NCBI GenBank assembly: GCA_029941865.1
Contig: JAPYTO010000001.1
Coordinates: 1 to 64,000, forward strand
Reading direction: 5' to 3'
DNA from: Fuerstiella sp.
GTDB taxonomy: Bacteria; Planctomycetota; Planctomycetia; Planctomycetales; Planctomycetaceae
DNA length: 64,000 bases
Shown: piece by piece, positions 6,119 through 44,467 of the stretch
Layout: each line of letters begins with the position of its first letter
Numbering within the stretch: position 1 is the stretch's first letter
Notes under the pieces: generated by a model
Database searches by the model: none
Told to the model about the DNA's origin: nothing
What the model saw: the letters and a program-made list of their open reading frames with translations, nothing else
Made by a program: the position numbers and the translations under genes

Positions 6119-6220
6119 CACAGCGAATTTCGCTGACTCATGGCCGCGATTAACGCGTTTTGATAGCAGAACGGCTGCCCCCACGAGCCAGAACCGGTTC
6201 CGCGAATTTGTAAACTGCTC
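6119..6220 (-). repeat. dispersed 5'-leader element, copy A
   Basis: Read on the minus strand, this about 102-nt segment starts with GAGCAGTTT, passes through CTGGCTCGTGG and TCGCGGCCATGAGTCAGCG, and ends in the hairpin CAGCGA-AAT-TCGCTG. It matches two other segments in the window (9294..9396 and 44366..44467) along its whole length. It ends 11 nt before the start codon of the Gfo/Idh/MocA gene. The function is unknown; a promoter, an RNA leader or a mobile repeat are all possible. Confidence 0.65.
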
Positions 6221-6260
6221 CTGGGACGCAAAAGTCGTAGACGTCAGCTGTCGTACTGAT

Positions 6261-6324
6261 GTGTGCCACTGGCTCCGCCAGTGCCATGCACCTCATGAAA
6301 ACACTGGCGGAGCCAGTGGCACAC
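6261..6324. repeat. nested palindromic (REP-like) element
   Basis: GTGTGCCACTGGCTCCGCCAGTG (6261-6283) and its exact reverse complement (6302-6324) flank an 18-nt spacer. Each arm is itself a small hairpin (CACTGGC-TCC-GCCAGTG), so the unit can fold as one long 23-bp stem or as two short ones. It lies about 50 bp beyond the tyrS stop and could terminate or stabilise that transcript. There is no T-run, so a REP-like dispersed repeat is more likely. Confidence 0.75.
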
Positions 6325-9288: not shown

Positions 9289-9293
9289 CACCA

Positions 9294-9396
9294 GAGCAAT
9301 TTCCTTATTGTCGAAAACACGACTGGCTCGTGGCAGCAACAAAACTACAACCAAAAAGCATCATTCGCGGCCATGAATCAGCGAAATTCGCTGTAA
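9294..9396 (+). repeat. dispersed 5'-leader element, copy B
   Basis: The segment runs from GAGCAATTT through CTGGCTCGTGG and TTCGCGGCCATGAATCAGCG to the hairpin CAGCGA-AAT-TCGCTG and GTAA. It is nearly the same length as copies A and C and aligns with them throughout. It lies in the same orientation as trpC, about 108 bp upstream of its start. Confidence 0.65.
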
Positions 9397-14460: not shown

Positions 14461-16962
14461 ATGAGAAAAGTAATCGCAATTTTTTTCTTCGCGCTGCTTA
14501 GCGGCTGCGGTTCCGAGACAGCGCCCGTTTCAACAGAAACGCTAGGCGAGAAGGAAGTCGTTCCCGTGGTGGAAAAACCACCGGTTCTGATGCGTGCCCC
14601 CGACTTTTCTCTGACGGATCAGTCCGGGCAATCGTATGGTTCAGACCAACTGCTGGGCCGTGCGTGCGTTGTGAATTTCATTTTTACGCGATGCCAGGCA
14701 ACCTGCCCCGTGCAGACAGCACGGTTGGCCGAACTTCAGGAGGAATGGAAGAGTCATCCGGCCTGGAACGACATCCGCATGCTCAGCATAACTGTCGATC
14801 CCGAGTATGACACGCCGGAGGTTCTGATGGAATATGCAGTGGCCGCCAAGGCTGACATGCATCACTGGAAATTTCTGACCGGTCCGAAGGACACGATATT
14901 GGCATTAACCAGGCAGGGCTTCAAGCTGCCGGTGGAAGAAGACAAAAATGCCAAAGGAGCTCCGATCACGCACAGTCCTGAATTTGTGTTGATCGACCCG
15001 CAGGGCCACATCCGAGGCTTCTACGACAGCGGTTCTGCGACGGAACTCGAACAGATGAAGCGCGATCTTTACACGGCACTGGAGGAACGCCTTCTGATTC
15101 ATAACGACCTGCTGAATCCAACGTGGGTGGAAAAACGGCGTGAGGCTCAACTCGCCACGGTCGACAAGTTCAATGTGTTTCACGATTTTTCGTTCTTCGA
15201 TCGTCGTCGCGAGAGTGGCATTACGTTCCGAAACCGCATCGTCGACGACGCGGGTCGCGAGCACAAACCATGCCACTACGATCACGGAAACGGTATTGCC
15301 ATCGGTGATGTTGACGGTGACGGATTACACGATGTGTACTTTGTCACACAGGTGGGAGGCAACGAACTGTGGAAGAATCACGGGGACGGAACTTTCGAGA
15401 ACATGACTGAAACCGCTGGCGTTGCGGTCAGTGATCGGATCGGTGTGTCAGCGTCGTTTGCGGATATCGACAACGATGGAGACGCTGACCTGTACGTTAC
15501 GAATGTACGCAGTCCCAACGTTCTTTTCGAGAACGACGGCAAGGGAAACTTCACCGACATTTCTTCGGCGTCCGGTCTCGACTACGACGGGCATTCGTCA
15601 TCCGCCGTGTTCTTCGACTATAACCGTGACGGTCGACTGGATTTGTTCCTGGTGAACGTCGGTAAGTACACAACGGATAAATCGACAACGGTCATTAACG
15701 ATCGGTTCACCGGTCCTGATGACCGTGCATATTCATACAACGTGGCCAACCCGGATGCGTTTGCGGCACACCTGAAGCCCGAGCGTTCTGAAAGCAGCGT
15801 CCTGTTCGAGAATCAGGGGGGCAATCGATTTGTCGATGTTTCCGCCCGAGTCGACCTGCAGGATTCATCGTGGTCGGGTGATGCCAGTCCACTGGACGTT
15901 AACAAAGATGGCTGGCCCGATCTTTACGTGCTGAATATGCAGGGACATGACGAGTACTATGAGAATGAAAAAGGGCAACGATTCGTAAAGAAGAGTCGCG
16001 AGATATTTCCTGCGTCGCCATGGGGGGCAATGGGAATTAAGGTCTTCGACTTCGACAACGATGGTCGGCTCGACATCTATCTGACCGATATGCACACAGA
16101 CATGGGCGATCTTGCCGATCCGAAAAACGAAAAGCTCAAGACACCCAAAGAGCAGTTTGCGCCGGAAATATTAAATTCCGATGGCAATCACGTCATGGGG
16201 AATGCGTTCTTTCAGCAGCAGCAGGACGGCACTTATAAGGAAATCTCCAGTCGCATTGGAGCGGAAACTTACTGGCCGTGGGGCCTGAGCGTTGGCGATC
16301 TGAATGCCGACGGCTTCGAGGACGTGTTTGTAACTGCCAGTATGAATTTCCCATTCCGCTATGCCATCAATTCCGTGTTACTGAACAATGAAGGCCGCGA
16401 GTTTCTGGATGCTGAGTACCTGCTGGGTGTCGAACCGCGACGTGCCGATCGGACGGCCGTCCCTTGGTTCGAATTTGATGTAGCAGGAAAGGACCGCGAG
16501 TTAGCAGAAGCGTATCGAGCCAAGGGTGCAAATGTCACGCGAATCGCCGCATGGGGCGCGCTAGGGACACGTTCGTCCGCTATTTTTGATATAGATAACG
16601 ACGGTGACCTCGACATTATCACTAACGACTTTAATTCCGAGCCCATGGTGCTCGTCAGCAATCTGATGGAGAAAGAACACCGGAATCATTTCCTGAAGAT
16701 TGACCTGACGGGAATATCATCAAATCGTGACGGTTTGGGGGCCACAGTTACCGTCCACACAGCAACGCAACGCTATGTAAAGGTCTACGATGGCAAGTCA
16801 GGGTACCTGTCGCAAAGCAGTTGCCCTCTGTACTTCGGCTTGGGTACGTCCAGCGATGTCGATCGCATCGAGATCCAATGGCCGTCCGGGCAATCACAGA
16901 TCGTGACCGGCCCGGTTACTGTGGATACGGTGCTTGAGATAACGGAACCCAAGGCACCGTAA
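14461..16962 (+). CDS. Sco/SenC copper-chaperone domain fused to VCBS repeats and ASPIC/UnbV
   Basis: The 833-residue lipoprotein (lipobox LLSGC, Cys near residue 16) carries a Sco1/SenC thioredoxin-fold domain at about 45-205. It has CQATCP (CxxxC copper/redox motif), SITVDPEYDTPE and the conserved His in HSPEFVLIDPQG. Seven or so calcium-loop-like VCBS/FG-GAP motifs follow (DVDGDGLHD, DIDNDGDADLY, DYNRDGRLDLF, DFDNDGRLDIY). A C-terminal ASPIC/UnbV domain contains LYFGLGTSSDVDRIEIQWPS. Sco proteins deliver copper to CuA of COX2, which fits the COX2-like gene two positions upstream. The fusion suggests a surface-attached copper or thiol-redox function. Confidence 0.9.
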   Translation: MRKVIAIFFFALLSGCGSETAPVSTETLGEKEVVPVVEKPPVLMRAPDFSLTDQSGQSYGSDQLLGRACVVNFIFTRCQATCPVQTARLAELQEEWKSHPAWNDIRMLSITVDPEYDTPEVLMEYAVAAKADMHHWKFLTGPKDTILALTRQGFKLPVEEDKNAKGAPITHSPEFVLIDPQGHIRGFYDSGSATELEQMKRDLYTALEERLLIHNDLLNPTWVEKRREAQLATVDKFNVFHDFSFFDRRRESGITFRNRIVDDAGREHKPCHYDHGNGIAIGDVDGDGLHDVYFVTQVGGNELWKNHGDGTFENMTETAGVAVSDRIGVSASFADIDNDGDADLYVTNVRSPNVLFENDGKGNFTDISSASGLDYDGHSSSAVFFDYNRDGRLDLFLVNVGKYTTDKSTTVINDRFTGPDDRAYSYNVANPDAFAAHLKPERSESSVLFENQGGNRFVDVSARVDLQDSSWSGDASPLDVNKDGWPDLYVLNMQGHDEYYENEKGQRFVKKSREIFPASPWGAMGIKVFDFDNDGRLDIYLTDMHTDMGDLADPKNEKLKTPKEQFAPEILNSDGNHVMGNAFFQQQQDGTYKEISSRIGAETYWPWGLSVGDLNADGFEDVFVTASMNFPFRYAINSVLLNNEGREFLDAEYLLGVEPRRADRTAVPWFEFDVAGKDRELAEAYRAKGANVTRIAAWGALGTRSSAIFDIDNDGDLDIITNDFNSEPMVLVSNLMEKEHRNHFLKIDLTGISSNRDGLGATVTVHTATQRYVKVYDGKSGYLSQSSCPLYFGLGTSSDVDRIEIQWPSGQSQIVTGPVTVDTVLEITEPKAP

Positions 16963-17124
16963 GAGTTGTATTGTGATCTGGTCGATGGCAGAATAATAAT
17001 CATCGGAGATTTCTGCGACGGGTGACGGGCGTCGCTAACCCGTCAACTCCGTGGAAAAAGCATTTGACCGATCATTTTTGTCGTCGTCTTGCCGTGTCCG
17101 AATAAGTTCTAACTGTGGTGAACC

Positions 17125-17937
17125 ATGTCGGAAGACAAACCAAACAAAAACGACGGGGATGCGGTTGCTGGAGAAACCAGTGCTGAGCAGATATTGCCCG
17201 GTAGCCTGTCGGCTCCGACGCTGGTTGGAGAAAACGCTCTCTTGTTATCGCCGATCCCAGGCTTGATCCTCTCGGGGCTTGTCGCCTGCCTGGTCTGGGG
17301 GGCACTTGAGGTCCTGCCGCCCGTCTTTCAAATCCAAGAGCACTTACGCGACTTAGAGGGAAATCTTACCACAGCTCAGAGTAAGGAAATAGCGGATGCC
17401 TCCGTGGCTGCGAGCAACAAAAATGCTGCGTTTTCGCTCGCGCTGTTGGCATCAACGATGGGACTGTTCCTGACGATCGCCGAAGTAAAGATTCGCCGTC
17501 AGGGGTTGCGAGCGATTTGGGCGGCGCCGCTGGCCGTTTTGATTGCCGGCGTTTTCGCTGTCGGTGGAGGAATCCTCGGTGGCATGCTCACTGCATCTCC
17601 CGCTCTACCTGAAGATCCGCTTACCAGGACAATAATCGTGCAGGGCACCATGTTCGGACTCGTAGGATTGGGTGTCGGGGCAGGAGTTGGGTTGGCAGTT
17701 ACGTTGCCGATGTTTGGACCTCGGCTGTTGTCAACCTGCATTGCCGGCGGGACTCTTGGGGGCCTGCTCGCCGGTTTGATTTTCCCGTTTGCGGCCAGCG
17801 TTTTCCTGCCGAATGCACGAACTGAAGTCTTGATGCCTGACCCGGGAGTCAGTCGATTGCTTTGGCTCGCACTGGCGTCGTGCGCGATTGTCCTGCCCCT
17901 GACCGGCATGGGAAAAGGGGAGAAGACGGGGACATGA
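17125..17937 (+). CDS. multi-pass membrane protein of unknown function
   Basis: The 270-residue product has a polar N-terminus of about 45 residues and then about six hydrophobic, glycine-rich segments (for example LILSGLVACLVWGALEVL, FSLALLASTMGLFLTIA, LAVLIAGVFAVGGGILGGML, GLVGLGVGAGVGLAVTLPMF, LLWLALASCAIVLPLTGM). No family was recognised. It lies 162 bp after the Sco-VCBS gene on the same strand and could belong to the same group. Confidence 0.7.
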   Translation: MSEDKPNKNDGDAVAGETSAEQILPGSLSAPTLVGENALLLSPIPGLILSGLVACLVWGALEVLPPVFQIQEHLRDLEGNLTTAQSKEIADASVAASNKNAAFSLALLASTMGLFLTIAEVKIRRQGLRAIWAAPLAVLIAGVFAVGGGILGGMLTASPALPEDPLTRTIIVQGTMFGLVGLGVGAGVGLAVTLPMFGPRLLSTCIAGGTLGGLLAGLIFPFAASVFLPNARTEVLMPDPGVSRLLWLALASCAIVLPLTGMGKGEKTGT

Positions 17938-18131
17938 GGGACGAGAACCGTGTGGTTTATACTCATCCCCCGGGCAACATTGAACGCGTGCACCCTGGAT
18001 AGCACAGAGGAGAAGTTGCTTGAAGTGTCAGAGTTTGTCCATGAGTGTTTGAATCGCCCGATGGAATGAGTTGAATTCGATGTCAGCAGCCGTTCTAATG
18101 ATGTGGCCTAGCCTGAGTTTCTACACCTAAA

Positions 18132-18157
18132 TAGTTCCGCCAATTAGTTCCGCCAAT
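18132..18157. repeat. 13-bp direct tandem repeat
   Basis: TAGTTCCGCCAAT occurs twice in a row about 40 bp upstream of the small lipoprotein gene. It may be an operator-like tandem or a replication-slippage product. Confidence 0.6.
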
Positions 18158-18197
18158 TGTCTACAACACGTTTTTAAGATTTAAGAGGGGCTCTTCG

Positions 18198-18398
18198 ATG
18201 ACTCGTATTTCACTGTTGCTGGTCGCGTTTGTTTGTTTCACATTTGCAGGTTGTGGTGGCGAACCAGGGTCCGGAAATCTCGACGCGCCTGATCCAGCAA
18301 CAGACACGACCCCGATTGAAGACGACTTGGCATCTTCCGGCATGGAAGGCATGACGGACGCAGAATACTTAAGTGGCGGCAAGGCGAAAGAAGAGTAG
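18198..18398 (+). CDS. small lipoprotein
   Basis: The 66-residue product is a signal peptide with a clear lipobox (FAGCGG, Cys near residue 19) followed by an acidic, flexible tail of about 45 residues (LDAPDPATDTTPIEDD). Small GCGG-type lipoproteins of this kind are common in Planctomycetota and have no known function. AGAGGGG lies about 5 nt upstream of the ATG, supporting the start. Confidence 0.7.
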   Translation: MTRISLLLVAFVCFTFAGCGGEPGSGNLDAPDPATDTTPIEDDLASSGMEGMTDAEYLSGGKAKEE

Positions 18399-18532
18399 TG
18401 CGGGCGTCCCGCGAAGTTGAACAGTGATGGAGTCGCTCGATTTCGTCAGCGTCTAATATATCTTCCGTATTGGTCGGCCCTTTTCTATGTGGTTTTGGGC
18501 CAACCCTGTTCAATTCCGAGTCTGTGACAGCG

Positions 18533-19165
18533 ATGACTCAAGTCACTCGACGCGCGCGACCAATCGACCGTTCGGCGCAATTGTTTGTCGTGGGAAATGT
18601 GCTACTCGCCGTGCTTCTTAGTGGAGGAATCGCCCATTCAGTGATCAGCGATGGGCGGCCGCCAAAGATTCGTGTTGGTTTCGCCGACACCCATCGGCAT
18701 CTCATTGACACAAGGAAGCACGCTGAGATCATCCCTGACTTACAGACCGCCGCGTCCATCAATTTTGACGACGGCGTTACTCAACTTCAGTTACTCTCCA
18801 CGGCATACAAAGCTCACGACACGGATAGCATCGTTCTGGGACTTCGTGGACTGCTGAACCATGCGCCTGACGATTCTGAATTACATGGCGAACTCGCCAC
18901 TGTTCTGCTCGGAATTGGACACGCTGAAGACGCACTGCGACACGCTGAAGACGCACTGCGACACTTTGAAGACGCATTGGTCCACAGCAGCGTTGCCGTC
19001 AGACTCAATCCTGACTCTTCCCGGTTGCAGATCACGCAGGGGGCGGTCATGCTGGCGCTGGAGCGGAACCAGGAGGCGGCCGCTTCCTATAGAAAGGCTC
19101 TTGAACTTAACCCAGATTCAGAACCTGCACAACGCGCCCTGAAATATCCCTTAAAAAACTACTGA
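18533..19165 (+). CDS. membrane-anchored TPR protein with an internal 7-residue repeat
   Basis: I chose ATG 18533; the track extends 63 bp further upstream. The product has an N-terminal membrane anchor (LFVVGNVLLAVLLSGGIAHS) and tetratricopeptide-like helices, clearest at NQEAAASYRKALELNPDSEP near the C-terminus. Between them lies HAEDALRHAEDALRHFEDAL, encoded by three tandem 21-bp units, which lengthens one helix. The stop overlaps the next start (TGATG), so the membrane protein downstream is probably translated with it. Its role is probably protein-protein interaction outside the cytoplasm. Confidence 0.75.
   Translation: MTQVTRRARPIDRSAQLFVVGNVLLAVLLSGGIAHSVISDGRPPKIRVGFADTHRHLIDTRKHAEIIPDLQTAASINFDDGVTQLQLLSTAYKAHDTDSIVLGLRGLLNHAPDDSELHGELATVLLGIGHAEDALRHAEDALRHFEDALVHSSVAVRLNPDSSRLQITQGAVMLALERNQEAAASYRKALELNPDSEPAQRALKYPLKNY
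18918..18980 (+). repeat. three tandem 21-bp units inside the TPR gene
   Basis: GACACGCTGAAGACGCACTGC occurs twice exactly and a third time with four changes. The 21-bp period keeps the frame and adds seven residues (HAEDALR) per copy, so copy number could vary without breaking the gene. Confidence 0.9.
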
Positions 19166-20286
19166 TGCGTTACCGCGCGAACTCGAACACGTCCGGCGGG
19201 CTGCGGAGAAATTGTCCAATGGCTATCAGTTCCACCTTGCGTTCCATGGGATTGATCGGACGTTGTTTCGTTCATCCAATCTTCGACTATCTTGTGATCG
19301 GAGGTGGCCTGAGCTTAATCGTAATTCCCGCGGTCTACTTACTCGCTGATCCGCCAGTGATGCGCGACTTCACCATGTTGCCGTGGTTCATCCTGTGCAG
19401 CAACAGTGCACATTTTGCCGCGTCGACAGTCCGCCTGTATACGAAACCCGGGTCACGGGACGCCCTACCATTCCTGACGATGGTTTTCCCGACAGTAACC
19501 CTGGGCGTATTGACATTGTGTATGTTTGAGGCGGATGTCATAGGTCGATACGTACAATTGATTTACCTTTCGTGGTCGCCCTACCATTACGCAGCGCAGG
19601 CGTATGGTCTTGCCGTGATGTATTGCGTTCGTTCTGGTTGTGAGCTTACTCAGAATCAAAAACGATTTCTGTGGTGGATCGCAATTCTCCCTTTCTTCAA
19701 GGTGCTGCTTGTCGCGACTTCAAAGCACGTCGTCGCATGGCACATACCCGAACAACTGGTGTGGAGCCAGGTCGACTGGCGCGGAGGGGTGAATCTGGTG
19801 ACCGAAGTCCTGGGAGTTCTGGCAATGGCATTGCCATTGGTGCTGTTCGCGCAGGTGTGGTTGACCAATCGCCGCAGCATGCCGCTGATCAGCCTGCTGG
19901 TAATTATGACGAACGGAGTGTGGTTTGTCGTTTTCCCGCTGATTGATGGATTCGTCTGGACGACCATCTTTCACGGAATCCAGTACCTGGCGATTGTCAT
20001 GATCTTTCATGTGCGCGACCGTGTGGCCCGCCCGGAGAACAAACGGGGCGTGGTGTTTCACACAATTTGTTTCTACGGAATGTGCCTGGTTCTCGGCTAC
20101 GCGTTGTTCAATTGCCTTCCGTACGGCTATCAAATGCTGGGGTTCGGCGCGGCGGAAAGTGTCTTGCTGGTGATCGCCGCAATAAACATCCACCATTTCA
20201 TCGTCGATGGATATATCTGGAAGCTGGGCCGGGGTGACGCTAATCGGCGCGTCGTCGAAACCGTCGCCATAGGGACCGGGGCGTGA
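19165..20286 (+). CDS. histidine-containing multi-pass membrane protein, unknown function
   Basis: The product of up to 373 residues has about nine to ten hydrophobic segments. Histidines recur at membrane-segment ends: NSAHFAAST, SWSPYHYAAQAYGL, TIFHGIQYLAIVMIFH and the closing NIHHFIVDGYIWKL. Such a pattern can bind iron or heme in membrane oxygenases and desaturases, but no named family was recognised. The track start (19165) shares a base with the TPR stop (TGATG); ATG 19219 (MAISSTLRS) is an alternative start giving 355 residues. It lies between a TPR gene and a multiheme cytochrome gene. Confidence 0.75.
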   Translation: MRYRANSNTSGGLRRNCPMAISSTLRSMGLIGRCFVHPIFDYLVIGGGLSLIVIPAVYLLADPPVMRDFTMLPWFILCSNSAHFAASTVRLYTKPGSRDALPFLTMVFPTVTLGVLTLCMFEADVIGRYVQLIYLSWSPYHYAAQAYGLAVMYCVRSGCELTQNQKRFLWWIAILPFFKVLLVATSKHVVAWHIPEQLVWSQVDWRGGVNLVTEVLGVLAMALPLVLFAQVWLTNRRSMPLISLLVIMTNGVWFVVFPLIDGFVWTTIFHGIQYLAIVMIFHVRDRVARPENKRGVVFHTICFYGMCLVLGYALFNCLPYGYQMLGFGAAESVLLVIAAINIHHFIVDGYIWKLGRGDANRRVVETVAIGTGA

Positions 20287-20658
20287 CAGTGCGACCGCGT
20301 GGTTCGTCGCCGGTTGCTATCGGACACGACGACTGTCGTTAGCCGCGAAATTTCTTCCGTCGGTTTCACCCACGGCTAAGTGCTTTTGCGGCTCCGCCGC
20401 AGGTTGTTTACATTGTGTGTCAACGTCAGTCCGCCGCTGCTGATAATCACTGGGCGGTTACGTCTGCGAGCCTCAAAGCGAACCTGGACCGACCTGCAAC
20501 GCTCTCACTCCCTGCAGATACCTTCGGCTCAGACTCTTGATTTTTCCTGATCAAACACTTGTGTGGTACAGTGAGCCCCACTCAGCGGATGAACCGTTGC
20601 GGCACCATCGATTCTCCGACGTTTTGTTGTCTAAGTCATAATCTGATAAAATGAACGC
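20287..20658. other. 372-bp intergenic stretch with a small hairpin
   Basis: No gene is supported. TGCGGC-TCC-GCCGCA (20387-20401) is a compact 6-bp GC-rich hairpin followed by GGTTGTTT. It could end transcription from the upstream membrane protein gene. The promoter for the cytochrome gene presumably lies to its right. Confidence 0.4.
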
Positions 20659-21837
20659 ATGAAAACGCCCAGATCGTTGATTGCCCGATGGCCGCTGCTT
20701 AGCACTGCCGGAGCGTTGCTGCTCATCAGCATCTGGTGGTTTGCTGGCAAGTCCGCGCCGCCACCTGAACCGCATGGCCCGCCAGATCCGCCTGCGTTAA
20801 TCGCCAGAGAGACCAGATTCCTTGGTTCGGCGAAGTGTGGAGAATGCCACGACAAGCAATTCCAGCACTATTTAACCAGTGGCCATTCAAAAACGTTGTC
20901 GTCCACACGCGATTTTCCGTTCCGTGATCGATTCGAGGGTATGACGTTTGCCGATGCAGAACGCCAAAAGACGTTTCACTATTTCCCGGAAGACGTCGGC
21001 ATGGAAGTGGTGGTTCCAGGGCTGTTTGGTGGAGACCGATTTCCTCTGCAATTCGCGTTTGGATCAGGAGAACACGCAATTACGTTTGTGACGCTGACTC
21101 CGGATGGCACGGAGGTGCCGGCAGGAATTGAACACCGTGTTTCGTGGTTCACTGGCCAGGACCAGGCTGGTCTCACTCCTGGCCAACTCGGCGGGCCGGC
21201 CCATCAGGACATCGAATATTTCGGCCGCGTTATTCGAGGAGAGACTCTGGAGCGTTGCTTCGAATGCCATACCACTTCGGGGAGGATTGAAGGTGACCAT
21301 CTGGTCGACCTCATTCCGAATGTCGGCTGCGAAAGCTGCCATACCGACAGTGCCCCCCACGCGGCTTTGATGCAGGATAGGAATCCGGCTGATGCTGACG
21401 CCGGTTTTGAACAACGACCATGGCGTACCACGGACCAAATACAGATATGTGCTCGATGTCATCGCGGCGAGGACTCAGTCAGGAAGAGTGAGATCACGCG
21501 GGAAAATCCGAAAATCGTACGGTATCAGCCAGTCGGCCTGGGGCAGTCGAAATGCTACGTCCAGTCCGGGCAACGACTGCTGTGTTCTACCTGTCATAAC
21601 CCTCATCAGCATGCAGCCCGACAGGCGACCGTGCAATACGAAAAAAAGTGCCTGCAATGTCATTCCGTGTCGCCGCATTCCGCGCGGTGCTCCGTGTCGC
21701 CGGATTCCGGGTGCATTTCCTGTCACATGCCTCGCGTCGAGATTCATCCGTCAATCTCGTTTCACGATCATTGGATCCGAGTACGGAACGACACCGATCC
21801 TCCTGCCGTCCAGGGTGAGACTGATGTCAGACAATAA
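20659..21837 (+). CDS. membrane-anchored heptaheme cytochrome c
   Basis: The 392-residue product has an N-terminal membrane anchor (WPLLSTAGALLLISIWWFAG) and a proline-rich linker. Seven CxxCH heme-attachment motifs follow: CGECH, CFECH, CESCH, CARCH, CSTCH, CLQCH and CISCH, the last in CISCHMPRVEIHP. The spacing resembles cytochrome c554-like or tetraheme-type multiheme cytochromes that carry electrons outside the cytoplasm. The partner is unknown. The gene overlaps the following SGNH/TPR gene by 14 bp in another frame, so the two are probably one transcript. Confidence 0.9.
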   Translation: MKTPRSLIARWPLLSTAGALLLISIWWFAGKSAPPPEPHGPPDPPALIARETRFLGSAKCGECHDKQFQHYLTSGHSKTLSSTRDFPFRDRFEGMTFADAERQKTFHYFPEDVGMEVVVPGLFGGDRFPLQFAFGSGEHAITFVTLTPDGTEVPAGIEHRVSWFTGQDQAGLTPGQLGGPAHQDIEYFGRVIRGETLERCFECHTTSGRIEGDHLVDLIPNVGCESCHTDSAPHAALMQDRNPADADAGFEQRPWRTTDQIQICARCHRGEDSVRKSEITRENPKIVRYQPVGLGQSKCYVQSGQRLLCSTCHNPHQHAARQATVQYEKKCLQCHSVSPHSARCSVSPDSGCISCHMPRVEIHPSISFHDHWIRVRNDTDPPAVQGETDVRQ

Positions 21838-23683
21838 CCGGAATCGAAAACGCAAGTCCGCGATCGAGTGTCAGGCATCGTCACCAACGCAGCGGCCTGC
21901 CGTTGGGAGGTCGAATCGCCGGATATGGTATTTTCGAATTGGGGCACTGGTGTTGCCGATAGCCCTCATTCTGTTCGTAGAGACACTGCTCGTCTCGTTT
22001 GACATCGGCAACGACCTGGGCCTCTTCGTAAAGGTGCCAGGAGCCCCCAAAATACTTGACTATCAGGTCAATCCGCGGGCGGAGGAGAGCTACTTTTCGG
22101 GGCGCAAACTGGCTGGACCGGAGCCGAAGCGATTCGACCTTCCACGGCCTGATGGCGTTTATCGGATTGTCGTTGTCGGGGGCTCAACAGTGCTGGGATT
22201 CCCCTATCCGCCCGAACTTTCGTTTCCACGGCAAGTGGAGGTCTTGCTGAACCAGCAGAGCTCGCCCGAAAGATTCGAGATCATCAATGTTGGAATGGTC
22301 GCCATCAATAGTTTCAGTGTGGCAGACGTTGTCAAACAGTCCGTTGTGATGCAACCCGATCTGATCATCGTGCACACCGGCCACAACGAGTTTTACGGGC
22401 CGGAGGGAGTTGCGTCCACAACCGCGACAGCGCTAAAGTCTCAGTCTTCGCTGGCTGCAAAGGTCCGGCGACTGCGCCTATTCCAACTGATTGCCTCCGG
22501 ATTTGTCGATGAGCCATCCGACCAGAAAGATTTGATGGCAGAGCTGCCTGCGAGCGTGACCATTCCGCGAGATGGGCCTGCCTTTAAGCGGGCAGAACAG
22601 TACTATCGAGAAAACCTGGAGCGGATCGTCGCCACGGCATCCTCCGCGAAAATTCCGATCGTACTTACGACGGTGGCGTCAAATTTGAGCGGTCATTCTC
22701 CAGTTAGTTTTCATCTACCGGAACAACTCGCTGCCGACGAATTGAAACACTGGAGGGCGTTTTTCGACCGGGGACGGCAGCTCACAGTGGAGAAACTGTG
22801 GCAGGAGGCGCATGACCAACTCAAACAAGCTGAGGCGATTTCGAACGATTCCTCGCTATTGCATTTCCGCATGGGGCAATGCCTGGAAGCATTGGAGCAA
22901 TATCCGGAATCGCGAAAGGAGTTTGAGCTGGCCCGAGACCTTGATGGCTGCCGATTTCGGGCTCCCGGCTCGTTCCGCGGGATCGTTCGCGACGTGGCGA
23001 CGCAGACAGCTCAGTCCAACGTTTTCTTTTTCGATTCCGCCGAACAGTTGGCCGTCGAAGCTGGTCCCGCGGCGCTTGGGTCCAACTTCTTTCTCGAGCA
23101 CGTCCACTACAATCTTGATGGTCACCGGCGGCTGGCCATCATTCTGAGTCGCTTTGTCCAGCAGCAGGTCTTGCAACGACGGTGGAATGTCGCCGCAGTC
23201 CCGACGGACCTGGGACTTGACCAGCTGCTGGGACTGCTGCCGGAAGACCGCGTATCAGGGCAGTCCTATGCGCTAAAGGTAATGAACGTCTTTCCGATGA
23301 CGAAAACATTTGACGTCAACGTACATCGGGACGCGATTGTCGTGAAAATCCAGCGGGAACTCAGCATGTTGGACACGGAACAGCAACAGATCTTTGCGAG
23401 TCTTTCGCTGGATGACATGGCCTCCCGGCTCGCGGCAGCGCTCGCGGACTGTTTTCGCGACAAACGACAATTCACTCGGGAGTTGTTCTATCGCCGCTGC
23501 GATCAAATCCGCCGACCATGGGAGTCCGACGTCGCCTTTCGCCTCGCCCGCTGTCTGGCCGAATCAGACGACCATCTGAATGAGGCAATTGAGCGTTGTC
23601 GGCGGACACTGCAGTTGAACCCGCAACTCGCTGCGGCAGAAAAACTATTGACGCAATTGACGGCAGGCTTGCCACAGGAATGA
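21824..23683 (+). CDS. membrane-anchored SGNH-like protein with TPR segment
   Basis: The true start is ATG 21824 (MSDNNRNRKRKSAIE); the first 144 residues of the track ORF are a shadow of the cytochrome gene. An N-terminal membrane segment (LVLPIALILFVETLLVSF) is followed by an SGNH/GDSL-like domain with GGSTVLGFPYPPE (nucleophile block), IIVHTGHNEFYGP (Asn block) and HVHYNLDGHRRLA (DxxH-type block, with Asn-Leu-Asp-Gly-His). A TPR-like stretch lies in the middle (LLHFRMGQCLEALEQYPESR) and another at the C-terminus. Such proteins may modify polysaccharides or lipids at the membrane. It overlaps the heptaheme cytochrome gene. Confidence 0.8.
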   Translation: MSDNNRNRKRKSAIECQASSPTQRPAVGRSNRRIWYFRIGALVLPIALILFVETLLVSFDIGNDLGLFVKVPGAPKILDYQVNPRAEESYFSGRKLAGPEPKRFDLPRPDGVYRIVVVGGSTVLGFPYPPELSFPRQVEVLLNQQSSPERFEIINVGMVAINSFSVADVVKQSVVMQPDLIIVHTGHNEFYGPEGVASTTATALKSQSSLAAKVRRLRLFQLIASGFVDEPSDQKDLMAELPASVTIPRDGPAFKRAEQYYRENLERIVATASSAKIPIVLTTVASNLSGHSPVSFHLPEQLAADELKHWRAFFDRGRQLTVEKLWQEAHDQLKQAEAISNDSSLLHFRMGQCLEALEQYPESRKEFELARDLDGCRFRAPGSFRGIVRDVATQTAQSNVFFFDSAEQLAVEAGPAALGSNFFLEHVHYNLDGHRRLAIILSRFVQQQVLQRRWNVAAVPTDLGLDQLLGLLPEDRVSGQSYALKVMNVFPMTKTFDVNVHRDAIVVKIQRELSMLDTEQQQIFASLSLDDMASRLAAALADCFRDKRQFTRELFYRRCDQIRRPWESDVAFRLARCLAESDDHLNEAIERCRRTLQLNPQLAAAEKLLTQLTAGLPQE

Positions 23684-24350
23684 CATCAGAATGAACGCCT
23701 GTGGAATTCCGTCGCGATCAGAACCTCGTGCCGCCGCTGGCCCACTGAAAGAAGTGGCCGCAGCGAGTTGGTTGCTCTCACCGGCCAATCTACATACAGG
23801 GGGGGGACTGGCCTGATGCACCGCTAAGAAATATGAGACACGGCATTGTTGCGCTGCGGCTGGCCTCGGAGAGGCCGAAGCACGTAGCCGTGGGCTTCCA
23901 GCCCAGGGAACGGATACGACATTAACAGGAGGCCGTGAAACGGCCAAAGCCATTCTGTTCCGCAAACGATAACCCCGGTCGCCGTTTCACGGCGAACGAA
24001 TCCATTCCCCACGCAAACCATGGGCCGAAGCCCATGGCTATGTGCTGCCGCCACTCCGTGGCGAGTCACAGACTTCTGTCCACAGCGCGCAACAGGTTTC
24101 CGTCTTCCCCGCAAGCCCAATTTTCCCGTTCTTCGCTCTGTGCATCACGCCTGGGGGGGGGGGACCCCTGAGGAATTGTTTCGCCCCCCCCTAGTGTCGT
24201 TTTCTTGTGAGCGTGGTTTTTTTCGGTAGCACGACCGAGGTTTTCCTGAAAAATTCGTATTTGGCTTGATTATCGACGGGTTTCTTAAGAGCATATGTGA
24301 AGCGATAGACCCAGACCGTTTTCTTTACACATGCCAAGGGGAGTCTGCTT
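23684..24350. repeat. palindrome-rich non-coding stretch upstream of the DUF1559 gene
   Basis: This 667-bp stretch holds several inverted repeats: GGCCGT-GAA-ACGGCC (around 23933), GCCGT-TTC-ACGGC (around 23981), CCATGGGC-CGAA-GCCCATGG (around 24018), and the related GCCGTGGGCTTCCAGCCC (around 23889). The minus-strand ORF across it (23824..24120) translates these repeats and is not a gene. Short GC-rich motifs of this sort are often dispersed in planctomycete genomes. Confidence 0.6.
24153..24191. repeat. homopolymer tracts (G11 and C8)
   Basis: A run of 11 G (24153-24163) and a run of 8 C (24184-24191) lie 20 bp apart, about 160 bp upstream of the DUF1559 start. They could form a weak stem, could vary in length by slippage, or could partly reflect assembly uncertainty. 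Confidence 0.7.
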
Positions 24351-25415
24351 ATGAACTTTTTTACACTACGTCGTCGTCGTCGTCGGGCCTTTACGCTCAT
24401 CGAACTGCTTGTCGTAATTGCAATTATAGCGATTCTAATTGCGTTACTGCTGCCTGCAGTGCAACAGGCACGTGAGGCAGCTCGACGGACACAATGCAAA
24501 AACAACTTGAAGCAGATCGGCGTGGCCCTGCACAATTACCATGATGTGCATTCTATGTTTCCGCAGGCAAAAGTCGTTGGCGATATGAATTACAACGGAT
24601 GTCCAGGATGGATTGAAGGTTCAGGATTCAGCTGGCGAGTGATGATCCTTCCGATGATCGAACAGGCACCGCTTTTCAATGCAAATACTGACTTTGACGT
24701 GGGCATTTCGACCTGCGGACCGTTTCGCCCTGGTGCCGCCCGACGGCTGACGTTACTCAGAACAACGATGCCCGCTTTTCTCTGCCCAAGCGATGCCACC
24801 CTCTTTTTTCGAACTGAAAAACCAACAAATTACCCCGGTATCGCAGGTTCGAGAGGTGAACGTATTACAGGCCAAAGTGTCAATACAAGCGCCCACCATT
24901 GGAAAGCTCTCCAGGCAAATCAGGGAATGATGTCGTGGCGGGGCACTAGTTTTCGAGACGTCGTGGACGGGACGAGTAACACCGCGATGGTGGGAGAAGT
25001 TCATCGCGGCGTGCTGTTCAACCGTTACAGTGGCGGGCCCAGCAACGTTACCGGTCAGCGATGCAAATGGTGGGCTGCCGAATCCGGCTTCTGCGGTGCC
25101 GACACTTGGCGTTCGCCAAATGCCGCCAACCCCACCAAAGGCAACAACAAAGGTCAGACGGCCCCTCAGAACGGCACGGCCAATGACGATGCCTGTACAG
25201 GCGGCAGCGGTCCTTGCGCCGATCAGGTGTCCTGGGTTGACGACCTGGCAAACAACACGCCTGGGAATCGAGGTGTGTCAAGTGCACATACGGGCGGTGC
25301 TCAGATTTTGTTCGGTGACGGTAGTGTCCACTTCGTTAACGACAGCATGGACACGGGTGTGTGGAGGGGCGCTGGCACCATGAATGGTGGTGAAACCGAC
25401 AATATACAGTTCTAA
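24351..25415 (+). CDS. DUF1559 pseudopilin-like protein
   Basis: The 354-residue product carries a type IV pilin/type II secretion pseudopilin leader: an arginine run, then [19 protein letters not shown], with cleavage expected before the Phe. This is followed by [20 protein letters not shown], the hallmark of the DUF1559 family expanded in Planctomycetota. The C-terminal H-x9-DG motif is present ([12 protein letters not shown]). The arginine run is encoded by tandem CGT codons. AAGGGGAG about 10 nt upstream supports the start. The role of the family is unknown; export through a type II-like system and assembly at the cell surface is an inference. Confidence 0.95.
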
Positions 25416-25449
25416 GTAACACTTCAGTTGTTTAGACGCGAGTATTTCG

Positions 25450-25477
25450 AGACCCGGTGTCTGCGGACACTGGGTCT
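25450..25477 (+). terminator. intrinsic terminator after the DUF1559 gene
   Basis: AGACCCGGTGTC-TGCG-GACACTGGGTCT forms a 12-bp stem (one G-T pair) with a 4-nt loop, followed by TTGTATTTG, 35 bp after the DUF1559 stop. It isolates this gene from the CRTAC1-type gene downstream. Confidence 0.85.
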
Positions 25478-25541
25478 TTGTATTTGACGTGTATTCTCCT
25501 GTTGGTGACATGATAAGAATAAATGGTTTTCGCCCGGTTCC

Positions 25542-27308
25542 ATGCTAATGAGTTTCGTCACACGGGTCCCGGAAACTGGTGTACGGCCCCGACGACTGGG
25601 GGCGATTGGGCACCAAATTATTCTAACCGCCATCGGATTGACTCATTCGACTGCACTTCTTCACCCGGTTGAGGCTGCGCTCCCGGCCACTCAAAACGCT
25701 ACAACGTTTGTAAACGCAACAGACGAATCCCGGATTCAATTCGTCCACAATTCGCCAGCCACTCAGGACCGACATACTCATTTGGCATTCGGCTCCGGCA
25801 TCGGCTGGGTGGACTTCGACCACGACGACCTGCCGGACCTCTATGCTGCCCAGGGAGTTGCGTTCAAGCCAAAACGCTCTCCCAACCCTAACCTGGCATC
25901 AGACTGTCTCTATCGCAATCTGGGGGACGGTCGGTTCGAGGACATCAGCAAAGTCTGCGGACTTAACGACAATGATTATTCAATGGGGCTCTCAGTCGGA
26001 GACTTCGACAACGACGGTTTCCAGGATATTCATGTCACAAACTTCGGACGTAATCGACTCCTCAGCAATAACGGTGACGGAACCTTCACCGAAATTGCCG
26101 CGGCCTCGGGTGTTGCTGACACAGACTTCGGGGCGTCTTGTACGTGGGTCGACCTGAATGACGATGGCAGCCTGGATCTGTTTGTAGTCAACTACGTAAA
26201 ACTCGATGCGAACGACTACGAATTGTGCACACTCGAGTACAAAGGTAAACGTCACGGCATCACCTGTCATCCTCGTTCTCTCTTGCCGACTCGTGACGTT
26301 TTGTTTCGCAGTCACGGTGACGGACAGTTTTCTGATGCGACCTTACAGGCGGGTATGCAGCGGAGTCCGGCGGCACAAGGACTGGGTGTCCTCGCGACCG
26401 ACCTCGATGCTGACGGTGACATCGATGTATATGTCGCCAACGATTCGGTCGCCAACGATCTGTGGATCAACCAGGGGGACGGCCAACTGAGAAACGAAGC
26501 CATGTTGTCGGGGACCGCGTTCAACCGTGCCGGACGACGCGAAGCCGGCATGGGCGCGGTCGTCGGTGACGTCGACGGGGACGGACTCCCGGATCTGTTT
26601 GTGACGAATTACTACGGCGAGACGAACACACTCTACCGGAACGAGGCCGCAGGTCTGTTTCTGGACGTCACCGATGAATTTGGTTTGGGAAGTTCGAGCC
26701 GATTGAAACTGGGCTTTGGTACGTCATTATTCGATTTCGACAATGACGGTTGGCTGGACCTGTTCGTCGCCAATGGACACGTGCATGACCGACGCGAAAT
26801 CAATGGTCGGGATGAGCCGTTCGCGCAACGTCCGCAATTGTTCAAGAATCACGGCGGGCGGCGTTTCACGGACGTCTCAGATTCCGGCGGTTTGTATTTT
26901 CAACGCCACGTTGTGGGTCGAAGCTGTGCAGTAGCGGACTACGACCGCGACGGGTGGCAGGATCTGGCTGTCGGGCACCTCAATTCAAGCTTAGTGCTGT
27001 TGCACAATCAGACGCACGATACGCAGATGAATAGTTTGCGAATAGAACTGGTTGGCGTCCGGTCCAACCGCAGTGCGATTGGTGCGGTCGTCAATGTTCG
27101 CATTGGTGAAAATCAGCTGACACGGTTCCGCGTCGGTTCATCCGGGTATTTATCCTGTGATGAGGGCTGCCTGACAATTGGTGTCGGAACCTTCGGGACA
27201 CCAGTTGACGTCACCGTACGTTGGCCTGGTGGAGAAAGCCAAACCTATCGGTCTTTACAAACCGGACGGCGGCATGTTCTCATTCAGGGTCGCCAGCCCA
27301 TGCAATAG
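25542..27308 (+). CDS. CRTAC1-type VCBS/FG-GAP and ASPIC/UnbV protein
   Basis: The 588-residue, probably exported protein has a weak hydrophobic N-terminus (HQIILTAIGLTHSTALLHPV). Repeated calcium-loop-like VCBS motifs follow (DFDHDDLPDLY, DFDNDGFQDIH, DLNDDGSLDLF, DLDADGDIDVY, DVDGDGLPDLF, DFDNDGWLDLF), and the C-terminus is an ASPIC/UnbV domain (RSNRSAIGAVVNVRIG ... TVRWPGGESQTYRSL). These repeats build a beta-propeller; adhesion or ligand binding is usual but unproven. No CxxCH or redox motif is visible. The next protein of the same type begins 92 bp downstream. Confidence 0.9.
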   Translation: MLMSFVTRVPETGVRPRRLGAIGHQIILTAIGLTHSTALLHPVEAALPATQNATTFVNATDESRIQFVHNSPATQDRHTHLAFGSGIGWVDFDHDDLPDLYAAQGVAFKPKRSPNPNLASDCLYRNLGDGRFEDISKVCGLNDNDYSMGLSVGDFDNDGFQDIHVTNFGRNRLLSNNGDGTFTEIAAASGVADTDFGASCTWVDLNDDGSLDLFVVNYVKLDANDYELCTLEYKGKRHGITCHPRSLLPTRDVLFRSHGDGQFSDATLQAGMQRSPAAQGLGVLATDLDADGDIDVYVANDSVANDLWINQGDGQLRNEAMLSGTAFNRAGRREAGMGAVVGDVDGDGLPDLFVTNYYGETNTLYRNEAAGLFLDVTDEFGLGSSSRLKLGFGTSLFDFDNDGWLDLFVANGHVHDRREINGRDEPFAQRPQLFKNHGGRRFTDVSDSGGLYFQRHVVGRSCAVADYDRDGWQDLAVGHLNSSLVLLHNQTHDTQMNSLRIELVGVRSNRSAIGAVVNVRIGENQLTRFRVGSSGYLSCDEGCLTIGVGTFGTPVDVTVRWPGGESQTYRSLQTGRRHVLIQGRQPMQ

Positions 27309-27400
27309 AAGCGTGACTTCATCACCGAATCTTCATGTGTTCGCAGCCGGTCAACGCACGCGTGAGTTCCGAAAACGTTCGCTCTTGAATTCGCCCACAA

Positions 27401-30379
27401 ATGTCAAAGATGCATTTCTCGCTTCAATCACTTTTCCGGGGGCGTATTGCGTTTGTCATTACGCTCTCGTCTGTCGCAGCCGGCTTGTTCTGGGTCTGGA
27501 GCCAGCGACCAGACACCGATGCACTAGCAGGCCAGGTGTATGACGCGATTCAGAAAGGAGATTTCGATTCAGCGCGGCAGACACTCCGCGAACTGCATCA
27601 ATACGACCCAGAGGACGCTGACGTAATCGAGTGGCTGGCCGAGGTATGCCTCAATGCCGGAGACGAAGCAGCGGCCATCGATTGGTTGGAGAAGATTCCT
27701 GACACATTCCCGCAAAGAGCGGTCAAAGGGGCCTTTCGCGGCGCTCAACTCTCCATGAAATCGCACCAGGCTGCCAGGACTCGTCTATGTCTTGATCGCT
27801 GTCTGCGATTGGCCCCCGATCACGAACCGGCGCGACGTTTGCTGATTCACCTGGAATTGATTCTGACACGGTGGGAAGCGATGCTTGCTCAGATTGCTGA
27901 GCTGGACCGGCGCGGGCAGGCAACGCCGGCGGATGTGGCTTTGTTTTGTGTCGGAAGGAATTTCTACTGGGAGGACGATTCGCATTTTGAGTGGTTGGAG
28001 GCTTGCGTTGAGAATACACCGGAAGACTGTCTGACTCGCACCGCTCTGGCCTACTACTACAGTTCGCAAGGCCGACGTCACGACGCGTTCGCACTGTTGC
28101 ACAGTTCAGACGTTCCACAAACCGGGTTCGAAAGCTGGCGCATTACCCTGGGAATGATTGAGAACCACATCGATCACGATAACTTATCGACGGCTCACGA
28201 AGGATTATCCCGAATGCCACCGGAAGCGGACACAATCCTGCGAACGTGGCTGGCGTATGCCCGGATCTTCGCCGAACAGAATGAAATCGAACTGGCAATC
28301 GTCGCCTATGACAATGCATCCCTGCTCAGTCCCCTCGATCCCGAACCTGTTTCGGCAATGTCGCGGTTGCTGACGCGCCAAAAAAAACACGACGAAGCAT
28401 CTGAGTGGGCTCTCCGCGCGCAGTTAAACAGCCAATTGTGGCAGATTCTAAGCCATGCAAAACCACTCGCCCCGCAAGGGCCATCCGCAAAAACCGTGAT
28501 GGAGATGGGACGCCTTTTACAGACACTCGGACGGCACAGAGAATCGATCATCTGTTTCGAATCTCTGTTCGGCCATTTTGAATTTGGAGGCGAAGCGAAG
28601 CGACTGGCGGAAATCACGCGCCAGGCCAGCAATCAACAGCGTTATCTCGAAGTTGTGAAGGTGCAGGATCTCGACTGCAGCGTTTCAGTAGCAGGCACAC
28701 GAAGCGAAACAGCCCCGTGGGAGGCAACCGGAGAAAAGTCGGACGGGGCTGGTGCCGAGACAACCATCGAAATGCGGGACATTGCGGCAACGGTGGGGCT
28801 GGACTTCACATTTTTCCGTGGGGATGCCGTGGAAGACTTTCTTGCGGAAACGCTCGGTGGAGGCGTTGGAGTCATCGACTTTGACATGGACGACTGGCCC
28901 GACGTGTTCCTGACGCAGGGGACCTCGCTGCCGGTCTCGCCCCAGAGCATGTATTCCAATCGTTTATTCCGTAATGTCAACGGGACGTTGGCGGTCGATG
29001 TCACCGCCGAAACCGGCGTGACCCATGGCGGCTACGGACAAGGCTGCGCCGTCGCGGACATTAATAATGACGGGTTCCCCGATCTTTTGATATGTAATCA
29101 TGGTGAAAATGTTCTTTATAACAACAACGGGGATGGAACGTTCAGTGATGTGACACGTGAATCCGGACTGCAGGGGCAGCAATGGAGCACAAGTGCGTCG
29201 TTCGCTGATTTTGATGGCGACGGAGACCTGGACTTATACAGTGTGAATTATGTTCGCATCCCGGAGGGAGACCTGAAGCGGTGTCGAACGGGAAACTACG
29301 TTGGACCGTGCCGCGTCATGGATCATCCGGCCGAGCAGGACACCTTTTGGATCAACCAGGGCGCCGGTACGTTTCAGGATCGCACCGATTCCGTGGGAAT
29401 TCAAGCAGCCGACGGCAAGGGGCTGGGAGTCATCTCGGCCGACTTTGACAATGATGGCTGGGTCGATCTGTTCGTCGGTAACGACACCACCGGGAATTTC
29501 CTGTTTAAGAATCTTGGAACCGGGACGGCACCGGCGGAAGTGGCTGAGTCCGAATGGCGTGGTTTCCAGGAGATTGGTGTGCTGGCGGGCGTTGCCTTCA
29601 ATCGCGATGGCAAAGGCGAAGCCTGCATGGGTATTGCCTGCGAAGATCTCAACCATGACGGGCTGTTCGACCTTTTCGTGACAAACTACGAAAAGGAAAC
29701 GAATACGTTCTATGCGAATCTGGGGAACCTGAGCTTTGCGGATCAAACGCATCGCCTGAATCTGGCCGACGCAAGTCGCCCGATGTTGGGCTGGGGAGCC
29801 CAATTCATCGATCTGGACGCCGACGGCAACCGGGACCTGTTCGTCGCCAACGGCCACTTGTACACCATACCGATGCGTTCGCAGTTGTTCCTCAATCGTT
29901 CCGGTCAGTTCACGGAAATATCCGGTCGTGCCGGTAAGTTTTTCGAAGCAAAAAGATTCGGGCGGAGCACTGCAATCTTAGATTGGAACCGCGATCTGGC
30001 GGCCGATTTGACCGTCAGTTTTCTCAAGAGCCCAGTGGCACTGCTTACGAACAACATTCCGAACGGAAACCGGTTGTCTATTCGATTGATCGGTGTCGCA
30101 TCAACTCGGAGCATCCAGGGGGCACGTCTGTCGGTAACTGCAGGTCAGCGCGTGATGCATTTTCGAAACAGTTCAGACGGTGGATACTTTGCATCAAATG
30201 AAAACGATGTGAAAATAGGACTCGGACCGCACAAGCAGATAAAGACGCTTGAAGTGAAGTGGCCATCAGGCAGGGTTCAGACCTGGAATCACCTCCCCGC
30301 CGGCAGGAAATACGCGTTGATAGAAGGCAGACAAAGTCCCCTGGTCTTACAATCGGCTGTTGATGACGCCTTCCCATAA
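27401..30379 (+). CDS. TPR plus CRTAC1-type VCBS/ASPIC protein
   Basis: The 992-residue product has an N-terminal membrane anchor (IAFVITLSSVAAGLFWVW) and a tetratricopeptide region of about 380 residues (LAGQVYDAIQKGDFDSARQT, LGRHRESIICFESLFG). A VCBS/FG-GAP region lies at about 450-860 (DFDMDDWPDVF, DINNDGFPDLL, DFDGDGDLDLY, DFDNDGWVDLF, DLNHDGLFDLF, DLDADGNRDLF), followed by a C-terminal ASPIC/UnbV domain (LEVKWPSGRVQTWNHLPAG). It is probably a membrane-anchored scaffold with an external propeller. It overlaps the next TPR gene by 17 bp, so the two are probably co-translated. Confidence 0.9.
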   Translation: MSKMHFSLQSLFRGRIAFVITLSSVAAGLFWVWSQRPDTDALAGQVYDAIQKGDFDSARQTLRELHQYDPEDADVIEWLAEVCLNAGDEAAAIDWLEKIPDTFPQRAVKGAFRGAQLSMKSHQAARTRLCLDRCLRLAPDHEPARRLLIHLELILTRWEAMLAQIAELDRRGQATPADVALFCVGRNFYWEDDSHFEWLEACVENTPEDCLTRTALAYYYSSQGRRHDAFALLHSSDVPQTGFESWRITLGMIENHIDHDNLSTAHEGLSRMPPEADTILRTWLAYARIFAEQNEIELAIVAYDNASLLSPLDPEPVSAMSRLLTRQKKHDEASEWALRAQLNSQLWQILSHAKPLAPQGPSAKTVMEMGRLLQTLGRHRESIICFESLFGHFEFGGEAKRLAEITRQASNQQRYLEVVKVQDLDCSVSVAGTRSETAPWEATGEKSDGAGAETTIEMRDIAATVGLDFTFFRGDAVEDFLAETLGGGVGVIDFDMDDWPDVFLTQGTSLPVSPQSMYSNRLFRNVNGTLAVDVTAETGVTHGGYGQGCAVADINNDGFPDLLICNHGENVLYNNNGDGTFSDVTRESGLQGQQWSTSASFADFDGDGDLDLYSVNYVRIPEGDLKRCRTGNYVGPCRVMDHPAEQDTFWINQGAGTFQDRTDSVGIQAADGKGLGVISADFDNDGWVDLFVGNDTTGNFLFKNLGTGTAPAEVAESEWRGFQEIGVLAGVAFNRDGKGEACMGIACEDLNHDGLFDLFVTNYEKETNTFYANLGNLSFADQTHRLNLADASRPMLGWGAQFIDLDADGNRDLFVANGHLYTIPMRSQLFLNRSGQFTEISGRAGKFFEAKRFGRSTAILDWNRDLAADLTVSFLKSPVALLTNNIPNGNRLSIRLIGVASTRSIQGARLSVTAGQRVMHFRNSSDGGYFASNENDVKIGLGPHKQIKTLEVKWPSGRVQTWNHLPAGRKYALIEGRQSPLVLQSAVDDAFP

Positions 30380-44306: not shown

Positions 44307-44365
44307 TCAGTTTTTTCCGACCAGAACGCGTTCTCCGCATGCACATCCGAACGGATTCCACATTA

Positions 44366-44467
44366 GAGAAATTTACTTTTTGTCGTGAACGATGCTGGCT
44401 CGCGGGAGTAACGAAACTGCTGTTAAAAAGCGTTCTTCGCGGCCACAAGTCAGCGTGAAACGCTGTA
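44366..44467 (+). repeat. dispersed 5'-leader element, copy C
   Basis: The segment runs from GAGAAATTTACTTTTTGTCG through CTGGCTCGCGGGAGTAACG and CTTCGCGGCCACAAGTCAGC to the hairpin CAGCGT-GAA-ACGCTG. The closing pair of the stem is T-A here and A-T in copies A and B, a compensatory change. It lies 53 bp upstream of the SGNH/hydrolase start in the same orientation. Confidence 0.65.

Follow-up and report, generated by a model that had tools for sequence, protein, structure and literature searches.

A dispersed ~100-bp repeat of Fuerstiella, probably a MITE family with IS630-type ends

We analyzed a 64,000-nucleotide stretch of the Fuerstiella sp. genome (the window; contig JAPYTO010000001.1, positions 1 to 64,000). 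Three noncoding segments in it are very likely, with a probability of about 0.93, copies of a ~100-bp non-autonomous element (MITE) mobilized by IS630-type transposases. The element is repeated through the genome, occupies a defined target, is missing from orthologous sites in sister species, shares an end with IS630 elements, and lies in random orientation to genes. The window copies and their parts are as follows.

6121-6220, minus strand: copy A (A-subfamily), flanked by TG (6119-6120) and AG (6221-6222); its right end adjoins the Gfo/Idh gene's AAGGA box
9294-9393, plus strand: copy B, a diverged copy upstream of trpC, with CA at 9292-9293 and TA at 9394-9395
44366-44465, plus strand: copy C (C-subfamily), upstream of the GDSL/SGNH hydrolase gene, with TA on both sides (44364-44365 and 44466-44467)
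6121-6135, minus strand: right-end hairpin of copy A, CAGCG-A-AAT-T-CGCTG
9379-9393, plus strand: right-end hairpin of copy B, CAGCG-A-AAT-T-CGCTG
44451-44465, plus strand: right-end hairpin of copy C, CAGCG-T-GAA-A-CGCTG
44366-44376, plus strand: left end of copy C, related to the IS630 end GAGCA(G/A)TTTAC

Each copy measures 100 nt between its flanking dinucleotides, and the core pattern matches the window three times versus 0.00 times expected from 100 shuffles. The first-pass annotation had described three similar segments of about this length at these places, each ending in a CAGCG/CGCTG hairpin with a closing pair of A-T in copies A and B and T-A in copy C, next to genes for a Gfo/Idh/MocA oxidoreductase, trpC, and an SGNH hydrolase. 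All of this is borne out, with Pfam identifying the downstream genes as Gfo/Idh/MocA, IGPS (trpC), and GDSL/SGNH hydrolase. Its interpretation, a promoter with a structured leader or a dispersed regulatory repeat, survives as far as the dispersed repeat is concerned, while random orientation and empty sister sites speak against the promoter or leader.

In the first DNA searches of the host genome (G000), which gave 185 and 194 first-look candidates, the best 40 were scored in each. A sequence-only model (R1), built from 41 copies (alignment A2), found at least 150 copies in this genome, the weakest listed match having E = 4e-13. When 58 genomes were searched together, the host included, nine had a match: G000, G001, G003, G004, G005, and G007 within the genus, each with at least 66, and G011, G014, and G027 in the family outside it. 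Two further members of the genus, G002 and G006, had no match in this search although their sisters hold at least 66 copies, and this absence reflects either loss or lineages that were never colonized. Among 170 genomes of the family, 19 had a match, spread over 9 of 58 genera. G004, a single 8.92-Mb contig, carries at least 150 copies; among the matches listed, the strands are + 41 / - 22 between 1.5 and 6.0 Mb versus + 30 / - 56 elsewhere (p = 0.0004, with split points chosen afterwards). This strand shift may follow replication or gene direction.

A regulatory reading would make the segments a structured 5' leader (regulatory RNA) or a promoter common to these genes, multiplied by duplication and retained to control expression. 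The placement of copies A, B, and C, each upstream of a gene and in its direction, is what such a leader would show, as are two conserved stems. We looked at gene context with a purpose-made gene caller (codon bias from 25 window ORFs), run around 114 host copies. Four overlapped a called gene, 101 had both neighbors, and 9 lacked a neighbor on one side. Among the 101 copies, 34 lay with and 29 against tandem genes (p = 0.61), 20 between divergent genes, and 18 between convergent genes; a gene start stood at the right-end side 55 times and at the left-end side 52 times. Placement in the direction of the gene thus describes the three window copies but not the genome, and a fixed orientation to genes has to be given up.

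Once the empty sites of 92 copies were restored, 65 insertions proved intergenic, 16 lay within a stop codon, and 11 fell inside a called gene; these 11 include a copy nested in another one and copy A, next to which the caller had misplaced the gene start. Of the 561 background YTAR sites in those stretches, 241 were intergenic, 37 in a stop codon, and 283 in a gene. Insertions therefore fall outside gene bodies far more often (81/92) than background sites do (278/561, p = 4e-13), in keeping with the earlier expectation that copies would not lie inside genes. The 16 of 92 insertions exactly within a stop codon count against a leader, and a search of the window against Rfam at the gathering score returned zero matches. 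A preference for stop codons was considered and rejected, as 16/81 nongenic insertions versus 37/278 background YTAR sites show no excess (p = 0.16). In stop-codon insertions such as those at loci L041, L057, and L062, the element's own TAG restores the stop; 12/92 insertions are in this orientation and 4 in the other.

The orthologous sites of copies A, B, and C lack the element in sister species G001 and G007. At copy A, the empty site reads CCC-TG-AAGGAAACC in G007 and CCC-CA-AAGGAAACC in G001, compared to CCC-AG-(element)-TG-AAGGAAACC in the host. At copy B, the conserved sequence of the sisters (CTAAC, then GTGTTGTATCGCC and onward) starts at the element's end, and the left flank has diverged; the empty site of copy C in G007 is CCA-TA-GAATGG. 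An element scan of sister loci from seven genomes (7 trpC, 7 TyrS, and 9 hydrolase-matching loci) found no copy at orthologous sites, with the limits that locus L213 offers 242 bp upstream only and that G003 and G004 match the hydrolase in part. The sole match in these loci was weak (14 bits, E = 0.0026) and lay inside the coding region of L196. Because the element is missing at these sites, control of these genes does not include it as a conserved component. Taken with the random orientation, this makes a shared promoter or leader highly improbable, while an individual copy, such as copy A beside the ribosome-binding site, could affect its gene.

The MITE reading is corroborated by the insertion target. 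Across 92 full-length host copies, the target is a palindromic YTAR with TA at either side: the left flank has Y in 92%, T in 85%, and A in 76%, and the right flank has T in 96%, A in 78%, and R in 87%. Strong conservation ends at YTA and TAR, beyond which the next two positions on the left show a weaker preference (A 49%, C 42%). An exact TA occurs on the left in 63/92 copies, on the right in 68/92, and on both sides in 45/92. In locus L014 (1445-1645), a C-type copy is nested in an A-type copy, and removal of the insert plus one TA restores GTGTTTTAATAGCAG, the sequence of other A-type copies; the C-type was thus active after the A-type had inserted there. A TA target with a 2-bp duplication fits the flank profile, the nested copy, and the empty sites; formally, the flanking TA might instead belong to the element itself and not be a duplication. 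It requires decayed flanks at copy A (AG and TG) and on one side of copy B (CA).

The left end connects the element to IS630. A DDE_3 search of 11 genomes gave matches in G001, G004, G005, G007, and G014 and none for an IS630 transposase in the host or in G003, these being draft assemblies. G001 holds two IS630 elements at TA sites, L174 (1032 bp) and L179 (1033 bp), with TAGAGCA at each end; L179 encodes HTH_Tnp_IS630 and DDE_3 domains in overlapping frames. The MITE consensus opens with 13 bp, TAGAGCAGTTTAC, that are identical to one L179 end. We compared the left-end consensuses of six genus genomes (seven sets, with the host A- and C-types separate) with 14 IS ends. Over the 31 bases after TAGAGCA, the Fuerstiella left ends agree with the G001 L174 end at 16-21 positions, more than or as many as with any of the other IS ends; in G005 the top value, 17, is shared with an IS from a different genus (G060). 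For the G011-type left end, the closest match is a G091 IS630 end (20/31). Two lineages thus have left ends whose closest counterpart is an IS630 end from the same or a related genus. The terminal inverted repeat TAGAGCA...TGCTCTA is present in most G011-type copies and partially matched in Fuerstiella copies, where the right end is weakly similar to the left end or to IS ends and the terminal inverted repeat is accordingly poor. Derivation of the core from an IS was ruled out, as the IS match ends at the element termini.

A transposase search of 170 genomes found relatives in 45. Within the genus these were G001 and a fragment in G004 only, the latter at a locus that carries the TAGAGCAGTTTAC end, so that co-occurrence of transposase and MITE is loose. 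The same search found no transposase of this IS630 subgroup in the drafts of G005 or G007, though both hold many copies. Host copies differ by ~7% from their subfamily consensus, and the host assembly yielded no IS630 transposase; here the family may have lost its mobility, its copies perhaps being fossils.

In sum, the element inserts at YTAR sites with TA at both sides. The left end, TAGAGCA(G/A)TTTAC and ~20 more similar bases, is an IS630-type transposon end, and the outer arm of the short right-end hairpin forms the other terminus. From ends and target we infer that it was most likely moved in trans, by cut and paste, by DDE transposases of the IS630 family. Surviving copies are found mainly outside genes and in random orientation. 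A single-strand (HUH) element, an IS200/IS605- or RAYT-dependent repeat whose hairpins are recognized substrates and which makes no target duplication, could account for the end hairpin and for the other stem, which has a bulged T, as well as for the strand bias along the G004 chromosome, where the split points were chosen after looking. Such an element is hardly credible given the palindromic YTAR target and a left end that equals an IS630 end over 13 bp and tracks IS630 ends between lineages.

Structure was examined on alignment A3, whose 79 rows comprise 10 host copies, 10/13 from G001, 11/11 from G003, 14/31 from G004, 9/9 from G005, 7/7 from G007, 9/9 from G011, 9/10 from G027, and 0/1 from G014. 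In the omitted G027 copy (L241, 1488-1650), a 34-base insert containing an inverted repeat of its own separates the left end from the core. Two stems, one of 9 pairs that includes a bulged T and the other the 6-pair end hairpin, are kept across genera, as the first-pass annotation would lead one to expect. Together they are paired in 94.0% of cells versus 88.9% in shuffled alignments, and the covariation score of 0.184 was reached by 0/500 shuffles. Four pairs have two-sided changes, a number that 77/500 shuffles reach and that by this measure lends weak support. These changes are mostly lineage-wise, G-C to C-G in G011 and C-G to A-T in G027, with T-A to A-T in the host A-type and G003. The G011 hairpin TAGAGCA-AAC-TGCTCTA lies in another register and was scored largely unpaired on A3. 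Folding of six single sequences gave z from -0.29 to -3.00, weak evidence in which the best fold is sometimes not the conserved one.

Either a folded strand or paired sites for protein binding could lie behind the co-changes in the stems. We regard it as unlikely that selection maintains the core as a nucleic-acid structure, made up of an end hairpin and a bulged stem enclosing a rapidly changing loop, with compensatory changes in several genera preserving both, and that it acts as RNA or as a folded substrate. If it were, the core as RNA might be, for example, an RNase III site or an mRNA stabilizer at gene borders; as a folded substrate, it would let the element parasitize changing IS630 transposases efficiently.

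Two other features of the window were observed. Between TyrS and Gfo/Idh, at 6259-6323, lies a long palindromic pair, TGTGTGCCACTGGCTCCGCCAGTG...CACTGGCGGAGCCAGTGGCACACA; G007 and G001 carry similar sequence at the corresponding position. Its core has 6 distinct matches in 441 kb of host loci (overlapping loci counted in bases), and it is perhaps a terminator or another repeat family. At 15462-29846, a few genes contain many repeated DFDNDG-type coding units (families D1-D3), probably calcium-binding or FG-GAP-like repeats.

The MITE family explains many dispersed noncoding repeats in Fuerstiella and its relatives. Its filled and empty sites are precise enough for dating insertions, and the family allows a non-autonomous element's ends to be set beside IS630 ends from several lineages. 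For annotation, the results caution that upstream repeats of this kind are not to be read as riboswitch-like leaders. Judged by title or abstract start, no published description of this repeat family was found in the literature, and the main text of the Fuerstia genome paper does not mention transpos-, insertion sequence, repetitive, mobile, or IS630. This is a new MITE family of the IS630 type in the taxonomic family of Fuerstiella, of a well-known kind. To our knowledge, the RUP sequence differs from that of the Fuerstiella element and the ERIC sequence is unrelated to it. REP/GTAG repeats, treated in PMC3733652, were considered and set aside; their layout seems to differ.

In the parts of the cited papers that we draw on, ERIC/IRU of enterobacteria has short imperfect inverted repeats (7 bp), TA termini, and many intergenic copies (PMC2229807), all of which resemble the Fuerstiella element; those parts of PMC2229807 do not name a mobilizing IS for ERIC. 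Correia/NEMIS of Neisseria is described there as a small TA-flanked MITE, often beside genes, with transcripts that can fold (PMC2229807, PMC10969869). The Fuerstiella element is likewise small, TA-flanked, frequently adjacent to genes, and foldable, whereas Correia has 24-bp inverted repeats and reported promoters and no long inverted repeats were found in the Fuerstiella element. RUP (repeat unit of pneumococcus), paired with IS630-Spn1, is given in the excerpted text as ~100 bp, intergenic, and present in ~100 or more copies, with a TA target and IS630-like ends (PMC2229807). On that description, size, copy number, intergenic placing, target, and ends are common to both; the Fuerstiella element differs in its host phylum, its weak terminal inverted repeat, and its two conserved core stems. 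Less usual for such a MITE is a core that is not IS-derived and whose two stems pair across genera, with some compensatory changes.
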